Below the pieces are notes generated by a model that saw only the letters and a list, made by a program, of their open reading frames with translations, made no database searches and was not told the origin of the DNA. DNA of 64,000 bases from Streptomyces halstedii (GTDB lineage: Bacteria > Actinomycetota > Actinomycetes > Streptomycetales > Streptomycetaceae): the NCBI GenBank assembly GCA_000720535.1, contig JOAZ01000010.1:62001-126000 (forward strand), in the 5' to 3' direction. Shown here piece after piece: positions 16,454-19,987 of the stretch. Position 1 is the stretch's first letter, and each line of letters opens with the position of its first letter. A program made the position numbers and the translations under genes.

Positions 16454-18322
16454 ATGACCACAGCGGACGCACGCACGCCTGCCTCGAAGCAGAATGCGCA
16501 GAAGGCGCCTGACGCACGGAAAGTTCCTGACGCGCGAAAGGCCCCGGATGTGCGGAATGCTCCGGCGGGCGAGGGCGGGAAGCCCATCGGCTGGCACAAG
16601 GGGTACGTCCAGGGCTCGCGCCCGGACCTCCGGGTGCCGGTCCGTCAGGTGCACCTCACCAACGGCAAGGACGTGACGCTCTACGACACGTCGGGGCCGT
16701 ACACCGATCCCGCCACCGCGACCGATGTCCGCCGGGGGCTCGCGCCCCTGCGGGAGAACTGGATCGTCGCCCGCGGGGACACCGAGGAGTACGAGGGGCG
16801 CCCCGCGCGTCCCGAGGACGACGGGCTCAAGCACACCTCGCCGCGCGGAGGCCTGCGCAACCTCGACGCGGTCTTCCCCGGACGGCCGCGCCGCCCCCGC
16901 CGCGGCCGCGACGGCCGGCCGGTCACCCAGCTCGCCTACGCCCGCCGTGGCGAGATCACCCCGGAGATGGAGTACGTCGCGATCCGCGAGGACGTCGCTC
17001 CCGACGTCGTCCGCGAGGAGATCGCGGCGGGCCGTGCGGTGCTGCCGGCCAACGTGAACCACCCGGAAATCGAGCCGATGATCATCGGCAAGCGGTTCCT
17101 GGTGAAGGTCAACGCCAACATCGGCAACTCCGCGGTCACCTCCTCCATCGAGGAGGAGGTGGACAAGATGACCTGGGCGACCCGGTGGGGCGCCGACACG
17201 GTGATGGACCTGTCCACCGGCCGCAACATCCACACCACCCGCGAGTGGGTCCTGCGCAACTCCTCCGTCCCGATCGGGACCGTCCCGCTCTACCAGGCGC
17301 TGGAGAAGGTGGACGGCCGCGCCGAGGAGCTGACCTGGGAGATCTACAAGGACACCGTGATCGAGCAGGCGGAACAGGGCGTCGACTACATGACGGTGCA
17401 CGCCGGCGTACGGCTGCCGTACGTCCCGCTGACCGCCCGCCGCAAGACGGGCATCGTCTCCCGGGGCGGGTCGATCATGGCGGCCTGGTGCCTCGCCCAC
17501 CACCAGGAGTCGTTCCTGTACGAGCACTTCGAGGAGCTCTGCGAGATCCTCGCGGCCTACGACGTCACGTACTCCCTCGGCGACGGGCTGCGCCCCGGTT
17601 CCATCGCCGACGCCAACGACGAGGCGCAGTTCGCCGAGCTGCGGACGCTGGGCGAACTCAACTCCGTGGCCAAGCGGTTCGGTGTGCAGACGATGATCGA
17701 GGGACCGGGGCACGTCCCGATGCACAAGATCAAGGAGAACATCGACCTCCAGCAGGAGATCTGCGAGGAGGCGCCGTTCTACACGCTCGGCCCGCTGACC
17801 ACCGATGTGGCGCCCGCGTACGACCACATCACCTCGGGCATCGGGGCGGCGATGATCGCCTGGTGGGGGACGGCGATGCTCTGCTACGTCACGCCGAAGG
17901 AGCACCTGGGGCTGCCGAACCGGGACGACGTCAAGACGGGTGTCATCACCTACAAGATCGCCGCCCATGCGGCCGACCTCGCCAAGGGCCACCCCGGGGC
18001 GCAGGACTGGGACGACGCGCTGTCCGACGCGCGGTTCGAGTTCCGCTGGGAGGACCAGTTCAACCTGGCGCTCGACCCGGACACGGCACGGGAGTTCCAC
18101 GACGAGACGCTGCCGGCGGAACCGGCGAAGACCGCGCACTTCTGCTCGATGTGCGGGCCGAAGTTCTGTTCGATGAAGATCTCGCACGACATCCGGCGTG
18201 AGCACGGGGCGGACCAGGCCGAGATCGAGGCGGGGATGGCCCGGAAGTCCGAGGAGTTCGCGGCGGCGGGCAACCGCGTCTATCTGCCGCTCGCGGAGAC
18301 GGGCGGCGGACCGGCCGACTGA
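16454..18322 (+). CDS. thiC: Phosphomethylpyrimidine synthase ThiC
   Basis: 622 aa from ATG 16454. ThiC is a radical-SAM enzyme that converts aminoimidazole ribotide to HMP-phosphate in thiamine synthesis. The C-terminal cluster motif CSMCGPKFC (CxxCxxxxC, about residues 562-571) is intact. Conserved core sequences include [34 protein letters not shown] and [15 protein letters not shown]. The first ~45 residues are a low-complexity repeat (DARK-like units [16 protein letters not shown]) absent from many ThiC proteins. Controlled by the TPP riboswitch just upstream. The 3' end has a diverged partial copy at 19914. Confidence 0.98.
18174..18246 (+). repeat. Direct repeat copy 1: 3' end of thiC
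   Basis: These 73 bases encode the ThiC segment around [20 protein letters not shown] and match 19914-19987 at roughly 85% identity by eye, with one base inserted in the downstream copy. The intact copy is the functional one. Confidence 0.75.
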
Positions 18323-18614
18323 CCTGGCCGCCTCGGTGGAGGGGGGCCCGCCAGGCCACCCGTCCTGGCCGGCCCGCCTCCGCGAAACCCACCGCGAACG
18401 GCTTGTCGGTGTCGTCCGTCACCAGGTGGATGCTGCACTCCGTCACGCTGTCGCCCGGCTCGGCAGCTCGGCGCCGGGGAGCGGCGCCGAGCCGCTGAGC
18501 CGCGACCTCGCGCGCGGTTCGGGCCGGTGGTGCGTGCCTTCCGGCTGTTGTCGCTCCCGTCGCTGTCAGTGCGCTTCGGTAACTTGCTCGACACGGAGTC
18601 GAGGAGGCGTACAG
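18323..18614. other. Gap behind thiC with a possible decayed minus-strand gene
   Basis: On the minus strand from GTG 18446 the frame reads ECSIHLVTDDTDKPFAVGFA and on into AEAGRPG, with GC-biased codon usage, but it then runs without a stop into thiC antisense. It looks like the start of a gene cut off by recombination. An inverted repeat GCTCGGCGCCG at 18472-18504 (AGCTCGGCGCCGGGG / GCGGCGCCGAGC) could be a terminator for thiC. Confidence 0.35.
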
Positions 18615-19874
18615 GTGGGCGGTCCGGTGGTCGAGATGAGCCATGCCGAGGGGTGGGATTTCCAGGCGGGGGCTGAGGTCGGGCCGTTGAGTCCGCAGGA
18701 GGCACGGGCGCGGGACTCGGCCGGCCTGCCGTACGTCGTGGCGTACCGGGCCGCCGGGAGCGCGGGGCCCTTCGAGGTCCGTCTGGTGTCCTGGCGCGAC
18801 CACTACGCCGGGGTGTGGGTGTACGACGAGCATGGACGGCGGGTGGAGCACCTGGAACTGCGGCTGCTGGACGAGGACCGCTTGTTGCGCAGGTACACCG
18901 AGCGCTGGGTCTACGCGGGTCCCGAGGTGCCGGAGTTCGAACGGTCCAGCGACCGGACGGTTCTGGAGCTGTTTCCGGGGGGACGGGGCTCGCTGTCGCG
19001 CAGACCTCAGGGAGACGCGGGGCCCATGACGGTGACGGTGCCGGACCTCGCTGAGGGCGAAAGGTGGCTGCGGCGGCCTGAGTTCGGCAGCTGGCCACTG
19101 TTCTCCGCCGACAGGTCCGGTGGCGTCGGCTCGATACGGTGCGCGGCGGCGCCGTTCACCGGGACCGGCCCCGGAGCGGCCGGGGATCCGTGGTCGCCGC
19201 CGCGACCGGGCGGTCCGGGCGGCCTCATCGCCCTGTTCTCGCCCGGCACCCGGATCACCACCGGCGACCACCGGGAGAACACGGTGGTCCTGGAGCCGGA
19301 TGCCGGTCCGCGACTGCGGGTGCCCAGCGGCCGGCTGGCGGTGGACGACCCGCTCGGCGACGGACGGCCGAGGATCACGATCGAGATCCCGCCGGGCACC
19401 TATCCCTTGGAGACGGCGCAGATCGGCTCCGGGTACCACTCCGAGTTCGAGGACGCGTGGGTCGAGCGCACCGATTCGCCGGCGGTCCGGCTGCGGGTGA
19501 GTGATGAGCCCGTCGCGTCCTGGACGATGGCTCTGGGGGAAGGGGACGATCTCAGACTGCTGCGCGACGGCCACGCGTACGGGTTCGACACGGGCGGGGC
19601 GACCGGCTGTTTCGCGGATGCCGGAGCGTGGCCCGTCCTCCAGGACCGTTACCGACGAGCCATGGCGGACAACGATCCGGACGCGGGCGAGGATCTCGAC
19701 CCCGACAGCGGCTTCTTCCTGCGGACCGTGGACGAGGAGGCGAGTGCCGACCTGCTCGCGTTCGCGACCGACGGTGACGGGACCCACCCGGTATGGGTGG
19801 GCCTGGACGCGTCGGGAGGCGTCGCCTGCGTGGTCCTCCAGGTGGCCTGGCTGCCCGACTTGACGGTGGTTTGA
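18615..19874 (+). CDS. DUF4241 domain protein
   Basis: 419 aa from GTG 18615, preceded by GGAGG at 18603-18607 (7-base spacer). The C-terminal half shows the DUF4241 pattern: SGRLAVDDPL (about residue 239), IEIPPGTYPLETAQI, then WTMALGEGDDL, YGFDTGGATGCFADA, and GFFLRTVDEEASADLLAFATDGDGTHPVWVGLD. The function of DUF4241 is unknown to me. The N-terminal ~200 residues look like an additional folded domain. It lies between thiC and a diverged copy of the thiC end, which suggests it came in by recombination. Confidence 0.78.
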   Translation: MGGPVVEMSHAEGWDFQAGAEVGPLSPQEARARDSAGLPYVVAYRAAGSAGPFEVRLVSWRDHYAGVWVYDEHGRRVEHLELRLLDEDRLLRRYTERWVYAGPEVPEFERSSDRTVLELFPGGRGSLSRRPQGDAGPMTVTVPDLAEGERWLRRPEFGSWPLFSADRSGGVGSIRCAAAPFTGTGPGAAGDPWSPPRPGGPGGLIALFSPGTRITTGDHRENTVVLEPDAGPRLRVPSGRLAVDDPLGDGRPRITIEIPPGTYPLETAQIGSGYHSEFEDAWVERTDSPAVRLRVSDEPVASWTMALGEGDDLRLLRDGHAYGFDTGGATGCFADAGAWPVLQDRYRRAMADNDPDAGEDLDPDSGFFLRTVDEEASADLLAFATDGDGTHPVWVGLDASGGVACVVLQVAWLPDLTVV

Positions 19875-19913
19875 CCATGAGCCCTCTCGGCCTGCGGGTG
19901 AGATGTCCGCTCC

Positions 19914-19987
19914 CTGAAGCTCTCGCACGACGTCCGGCGTGAGCACGGGGGCGGACCGGACCGGGACCGAGGCGGGGAAGGCCCGCA
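19914..19987 (+). repeat. thiC: Direct repeat copy 2: decayed thiC 3' end
   Basis: This block matches thiC 18174-18246: shared runs include TCTCGCACGAC, TCCGGCGTGAGCACGGGG and CGAGGCGGGGA, with one inserted G that breaks the frame. It lies just after the DUF4241 gene and ends 15 bases before the stop of the next (minus-strand) gene. It is a non-functional remnant of a second thiC end. Confidence 0.72.

Follow-up and report, generated by a model that had tools for sequence, protein, structure and literature searches.

Why should thiC, a conserved vitamin gene, be followed in a streptomycete by a second, broken copy of its own 3′ end, with an intact gene of the DUF4241 family lying between the two? 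The locus that raises this question is found in a 64,000-nucleotide stretch of the Streptomyces halstedii genome (contig JOAZ01000010.1, positions 62,001 to 126,000), referred to here as the window, whose own numbering is used for its features; loci compared with it carry L numbers. The intact thiC gene – 16454–18322 on the plus strand, encoding 622 amino acids (PF01964, E = 9.7e-187) – ends in what we call a native-type tail. We consider it fairly probable that the segment behind it is what survives of a site-specific insertion in the 3′ coding end of thiC, now decayed to cargo and a displaced tail without an integrase.

The second thiC end and its surroundings

The repeat, pointed out in an earlier note made from the letters of the window alone, holds at slightly wider limits than the 18174–18246 and 19914–19987 given there: in a local alignment, the thiC-internal positions 18165–18260 pair with 19906–19999 at 77 of 97 columns (79%), with 88.7% identity over the best 71. 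The single inserted G that was said to break the second copy is likewise present, changing the offset between the copies from 1741 to 1742 and disrupting the frame. The distal copy is missing the final stretch of thiC and stops just ahead of a conserved membrane-protein gene (20002–20823, minus strand; no Pfam family). In relatives this gene delimits the site on the right, and 94 distinct loci were measured in which it lies downstream of thiC.

Weak repeats are plentiful in high-GC coding DNA – 18 direct repeat families are listed for the window – and this might speak for chance or a common codon bias as the source. However, the alignment score of 112 compares with at most 82 among 300 Markov resamplings of the spacer, and a 30-mer pattern (A or G permitted at one position), for which 100 shuffles give an expectation of 0, matches within the window, at up to three mismatches, only at 18180–18209 and 19921–19950. 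Similarity of a chance level, against which the earlier note had warned, is thus ruled out as the source, and we give it practically no probability.

The left edge of the repeat falls on 11 bp of the intact thiC, TCGATGAAGAT (18170–18180, plus strand; codons S-M-K-I), the equivalent of an attachment core that is present at both ends of actinomycete integrative and conjugative elements (AICEs) integrated at thiC in other Streptomyces. A core scan finds a decayed equivalent, TCCCTGAAGCT, with three mismatches to TCGATGAAGAT, at 19911–19921 (plus strand). The second tail that holds it (19906–19999, plus strand; located by repeat search and alignment) may be described as an attR-like relic.

What lies between the two ends begins with a module, to which no strand is assigned, comprising the last 77 nt of thiC and 137 nt beyond (18246–18459). 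Over 214 nt it is 92% identical to its counterparts in L115 and L047, which also stand behind thiC, and over 213 nt 90% identical to that in L062, which stands at a second thiC tail; the C-terminal extension of the window's ThiC, ETGGGPAD, has the counterpart ETGGRSAG in L047 and L115. On the minus strand the module carries about 39 C-terminal codons of a lipoprotein-like gene (18343–18459), which L115 has as a 366-amino-acid frame and L047 within a longer open one; the decayed gene start that had been suspected here is therefore the wrong end of the gene. The intact DUF4241 cargo gene of 419 amino acids, by contrast, lies between the copies as described (18615–19874, plus strand; PF14025, E = 1.6e-24), with homologues at thiC in L178, L179 and L180.

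The module bears on an alternative in which the thiC end and downstream genes of another Streptomyces would have replaced the 3′ region, an illegitimate joint leaving the old tail behind. While the module is 92% identical to L115, the tail from the core to 18246 reaches only 77–78% with that locus, so that this part of the window's thiC is a mosaic; only the last 77 nt of the proximal tail, with the DNA downstream, are shared with the module as seen in L047, where it follows a tail of the element-supplied type (SI-type, described below). Compared with Streptomyces sp. SirexAA-E, moreover, identity is 91–97% in bins of the thiC body past the variable first 200 nt and 83% in the tail. Yet homologous exchange with a donor does not by itself give a duplication, and the position of the second copy's left edge on the core is left unexplained; we hold this account to be rather improbable.

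Upstream of thiC, a candidate thiamine pyrophosphate (TPP) riboswitch lies at 16328–16461 on the plus strand, with 47.4 bits (the Rfam gathering score of 54.3 is not reached) and E = 1.2e-8.

Elements integrated at thiC in other Streptomyces

The decayed insertion that we favour has counterparts that are still equipped with their mobility genes. In TSRI0281 (L040, L137), the 7.7-kb spacer behind thiC encodes a serine recombinase (PF07508), RepSA (PF20199) and an FtsK/SpoIIIE protein, predicted products by which this element is an AICE. Its integrase was searched for in 199, 392 and 293 genomes, pools that partly overlap. Integrases of at least 72% identity occur in 10 of the 392 genus genomes (E cut-off 1e-150) and in six of the 293 order genomes (1e-130; one shared), besides TSRI0281; all 15 matched genomes are Streptomyces, one of nine genera in the order-wide draw being positive. 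A copy of the thiC tail stands directly beside the integrase at every one of these 16 loci (15 genomes plus TSRI0281). The next-best integrase group (43–45% identity; eight loci, L143–L150) shows no such tail in its flanks, which were fetched to 1.5 kb at most, and all matches to four plasmid and 67 phage records stay below 60% identity. The arm of the fresh element was found once each in 17 of the 392 genomes, a reversed control pattern being absent among the matches listed.

Eleven loci were fetched with wide flanks, and thiC lies on the far side in ten, L190 breaking off at a contig end. Integrase, Rep and Tra genes stand between the direct repeats in L137, L169, L170, L172, L194 and L189 (tblastn in all six, Pfam on single members), L169 also having a GntR regulator; tblastn found no Tra in L188, L191, L192 and L193, and no RepSA in L188 and L193. 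The L193 element (13832–15685) is integrase-only: thiC is followed by a serine integrase of about 515 amino acids and a degenerate thiC tail.

Five loci (L137, L169, L170, L189 and L192) carry the core TCGATGAAGAT without a mismatch at either end, and in L172, L194, L191 and L193 an end departs from it at one or two positions; the proximal end of L188 is not among the scan matches listed. To the left of the proximal core lies thiC and to its right element sequence, e.g. TTAGCAGAAGCATCACAGAG, encoding ISRSITE with A/T-ending codons. In all ten loci where thiC is seen, it ends in an in-frame, element-supplied SI-type tail (such as KISRSITERFGG) instead of one of the native KISQDIRREHGG type. Behind the far-end core stands a native-type tail in 10 of 11 loci; the exception is L172, whose proximal and displaced tails (at 2201 and 12984) are both element-type, which suggests two successive integrations.

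The origin of the displaced tails can be read from their similarities. Own and displaced tails of a locus agree in only 65–74% of their DNA over about 46 codons, and the displaced one is nearer to another species' tail (79–97%) than to its own thiC in eight of the eight AICE loci measured. The clearest case is L192, where the displaced tail is 96% identical to the thiC tail of L113, the nearest body, and its own proximal tail 70%. In L189 and L191 it is the proximal tail that agrees better with the nearest body (93% and 82%, against 69% and 71% for the displaced one), because that body itself has an SI-type tail. To judge by sequence, then, the thiC elements practise gene-tail-restoring integration, supplying an in-frame 3′ end and displacing that of the host. 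Their core covers codons beside what we take to be the CxxCxxxxC motif of ThiC, the last cysteine of which is presumably a metal ligand.

The spacer behind thiC and the place of the window

How the site is filled was surveyed in 80 named and 20 unnamed loci around the membrane gene, by measuring how far the stop of thiC lies from that of the membrane gene. Five duplicates among the unnamed loci (L116, L117, L119, L120 and L123) and L080, whose stretch holds no thiC, were removed before counting, leaving 94 distinct loci; the distance of about 8.2 kb between thiC and the membrane gene in L138 bears on the dropped L080. L040, with a spacer above 6 kb, was omitted from the spacer and second-tail searches and replaced by L137 in the tree of ThiC bodies. 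The spacer measures up to 400 bp in 51 loci, 401–6000 bp in 42 and more in one.

The check for an empty site in relatives, as the earlier note had proposed, supports an insertion: the site is empty in Streptomyces sp. SirexAA-E (142 bp), the window's nearest relative by ThiC body among 107 rows (95%), as well as in S. silvae (148 bp), SM10 (118 bp), S. atroolivaceus (90 bp) and [Kitasatospora] papulosa (64 bp). Near the window strain, filled sites occur in clavifer (882 bp), BIG105 (917 bp) and HB132 (1744 bp). The cargo is diverse – ranging from a cluster of 14 open reading frames (the one scanned is TerD plus vWA-TerF) and another of 11 (the one scanned is DUF805) to single genes for MMPL, histidine kinase, HxlR or PIN proteins – and the spacer is a hotspot for varied small cargo genes. 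TerD plus vWA-TerF-like proteins are encoded behind thiC in many species (L083, L084, L107 and others); some of the TerD/vWA and DUF805 genes may be old residents of the site, so that not all long spacers are insertions. One genome (G025; L175, L176 and L177) has three thiC matches, two on contig C1 and one on C3, of which one adjoins the membrane gene in the fetched stretches.

The DUF4241 gene is far from being at this place in nearly all relatives, as a resident would be. It has matches (E cut-off 1e-5) in 61 of 295 genomes, about half of which were fetched, and thiC lies within the 1.5-kb flanks of three of the 29 fetched loci other than the window's: L013/L178, L014/L179 and L023/L180, the match in L180 falling into two pieces in different frames. 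The DNA of the window's gene recurs in none of the other surveyed thiC spacers among the matches listed, and residence at the site was rejected on these grounds. The protein has no sequence match in NCBIfam, PADLOC or PDB, and its single-sequence AlphaFold2 model (mean predicted local distance difference test score 34.5) is unusable.

Other cargo-bearing loci also hold second thiC tails. When spacers of up to 6 kb were probed with the thiC genes of all loci, second copies of the thiC end appeared in L132, L107, L076, L047, L062, the window, HB132 (L036, the same as L116) and L124, starting about 126–165 nt ahead of the thiC stop position, and in no spacer of up to 400 bp; single-query matches to inner parts of thiC in L127 and L110 were taken as chance. 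The core at the start of the second tail is exact in L107, L076, L047 and L062, with two mismatches in L132 and two or more in the weaker cases L036/L116 and L124. The second copies of L107, L076 and L047 resemble the thiC of other species more than that of their own locus, and in L062 both tails are SI-type. On sequence comparison, the closest structural relatives of the window locus are L047 and L178: the former shares its module at 92% and has an SI-type thiC tail with the ETGG extension, then the lipoprotein-like gene, then a displaced native tail; the latter shares the placement of DUF4241, which stands between an SI-type thiC and a native tail fragment without the core part.

That tails change hands is also seen across the genus. 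On a tree of ThiC bodies without their tails (107 rows, quick method), 32 rows are labelled SI-type and 74 native-type, L133 having an intermediate tail and hence no label; the label changes 21–22 times, with at least 12 changes forced by starred branches. SI-type rows are somewhat clustered, and the direction of change – gain or loss – is not readable from the tree. The 32 of 107 is not a frequency, because the rows include loci picked for an integrase or DUF4241 match; in the survey set, SI-type tails occur in 22 of 93 labelled loci and are commoner where the spacer is long (15 of 42) than where it is short (7 of 51; Fisher p = 0.016). Tails also differ within sister pairs whose ThiC bodies are much alike (L115/L137, L113/L192, L128/L178 and L124/L193). 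On balance, we think that this family of serine-integrase AICEs has probably been a recurrent donor of C-termini to the core enzyme ThiC, attaching at the codons beside its last, presumed metal-ligand cysteine, with tails that persist after the element is lost; about a quarter of the surveyed Streptomyces ThiC proteins (the same 22 of 93) would then carry or descend from an element-supplied end, and the window would be a fossil of the process.

How the window might have reached its present state can be outlined from what the sequences elsewhere in Streptomyces indicate, namely that an AICE with a large serine integrase integrates at the 11-bp core and provides thiC with an SI-type tail of about 46 codons – which keeps the reading frame open – while the host's native tail is shifted to the other end, next to the integrase. 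In the window, an element of this kind or a cargo derivative would formerly have been present behind thiC and would have lost its integrase, Rep and Tra genes, the stub of the lipoprotein-like gene and the DUF4241 gene being left over. A frameshift and the loss of its 3′ part would account for the decay of the displaced native tail, and recombination with the thiC of related strains would have returned the proximal tail, once the element's, to the native type. This last change is called for by the native type of the window's thiC tail and the mutual closeness of its two tails; in L115, a native tail is indeed joined to the same module. The direct repeats at both ends, with the left edge on the AICE core and a distal core decayed by three mismatches, are consistent with such a course.

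Several observations weigh against it. The thiC tail of the window is native-type, not SI-type. Over a 66-nt segment the distal tail has 87% identity to its own thiC, 68–79% to that of seven relatives with native tails and 58% to that of L036, so that the expectation of a second copy closer to another species' thiC, which held in the AICE loci, fails here; the two tails are closest to each other when set against the eight relatives, which is the reverse of the AICE pattern and calls for either a local duplication or some later exchange. The second tails of L132 (95.8%) and L062 (82.2%) match their own thiC best as well. The 40 nt to the left of the distal core resemble none of 16 known element arms convincingly, the best score being equalled or exceeded by 0.022 of random window segments (uncorrected). 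No integrase, Rep or Tra was found in the window segment, where DUF4241 is the sole family; for the thiC-type integrase, the window's own genome gave only matches of 25% and 29%, on other contigs, and a search of it for RepSA was empty, yet no control matched either. Finally, the window's DUF4241 lies outside the clade formed by the other three at thiC, and the approximately unbiased (AU) test speaks against a single clade, and with it against a single element lineage (p = 0.014, from a tree that has long branches and one row of half length); unless the long branches mislead, DUF4241 reached the site at least twice.

The closeness of the two tails, both native-type, is what a local duplication would give, in which slippage or an unequal exchange doubled the gene's end and illegitimate recombination captured DUF4241 between the copies, with no integrase involved; the second tails of L132 and L062 fit this too. 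However, the left edge lies within a few bases of the attachment core, as at the other duplicated loci, and an arbitrary duplication has no reason to begin there. The arm before the second tail of L132, moreover, resembles that of L047, and the L062 arm resembles those of L107 and L076 (by eye), pointing to elements at these loci too. We regard local duplication as unlikely, though worth keeping in mind. Of the earlier proposal, the insertion behind thiC is supported by the empty sites of several of the nearest relatives; its tail-restoring kind is what the AICEs of other Streptomyces show, and it may also apply to the window, although the proximal tail there is native-type.

Read as a decayed insertion, the odd repeat points back to a place within a conserved vitamin gene where mobile elements integrate, a place used by several Streptomyces species and a hotspot for small cargo genes. 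The sister pairs with like bodies and unlike tails make the effect of a swapped enzyme end directly testable, and the integrase with its 11-bp core might serve as a new landing site for Streptomyces vectors.

Relation to known systems

An IclR-type regulator and an SsgA-like protein are encoded at 13553–14862 of the window, upstream of yibE/F and thiC (assigned by eye), a pair useful for synteny that we liken to ssgR-ssgA of S. coelicolor. In the window the order is ssgA-like gene, yibE/F, thiC; in S. coelicolor, we take ssgA to be SCO3926 and thiC to be SCO3928. The genomic islet Gi-5 of that species is an AICE remnant spanning SCO3929–SCO3937 (PMC1934918, PMC8584621, PMC3017869), with genes for GntR (SCO3932), Pra (SCO3933), Tra (SCO3934), RepSA (SCO3936) and a serine integrase (SCO3937) (PMC8584621), an order that agrees with L169 for the genes identified there. 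With the window's gene order and these gene numbers, Gi-5 should begin directly behind thiC and is, on these two grounds rather than on sequence, probably a thiC-site element. This would suggest an attachment site for an islet for which the accessible part of PMC1934918 lists no flanking repeats, thiC not being named as its target in the Gi-5 passages.

More broadly, the thiC elements resemble the pSAM2-like AICEs with serine integrases, having a PF07508 integrase, RepSA (PF20199), FtsK/SpoIIIE and, in L169, GntR. Serine recombinases were reported for 19 of 144 AICEs, some of them located in protein-coding genes (Ghinet et al. 2011, PMC3218068); thiC is absent from the main text of that survey, as far as it was accessible, and the window itself differs from its AICEs in having no AICE core genes. 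No publication naming thiC as an attachment site was found in the partly accessible literature covered, which takes in little of the subscription journals. The decay and accretion of AICEs in a Streptomyces population (Choufa et al. 2022, PMC9513070) offers a parallel to the window, in that cargo and two direct repeats persist after decay; the target is a different one, with thiC occurring nowhere in the main text as available.

The nearest analogue of the integration itself, as described in PMC11148124 and PMC6379469, is the e14 prophage in icd of Escherichia coli, which likewise inserts within a coding sequence and provides the 3′ codons, leaving a piece of 163–165 bp from the end of the host gene on the far side. 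Whereas e14 alters two residues of icd, own and displaced tails at the thiC AICEs agree in only 65–74% of their DNA over about 46 codons, and the tail swap at thiC is recurrent across a genus.

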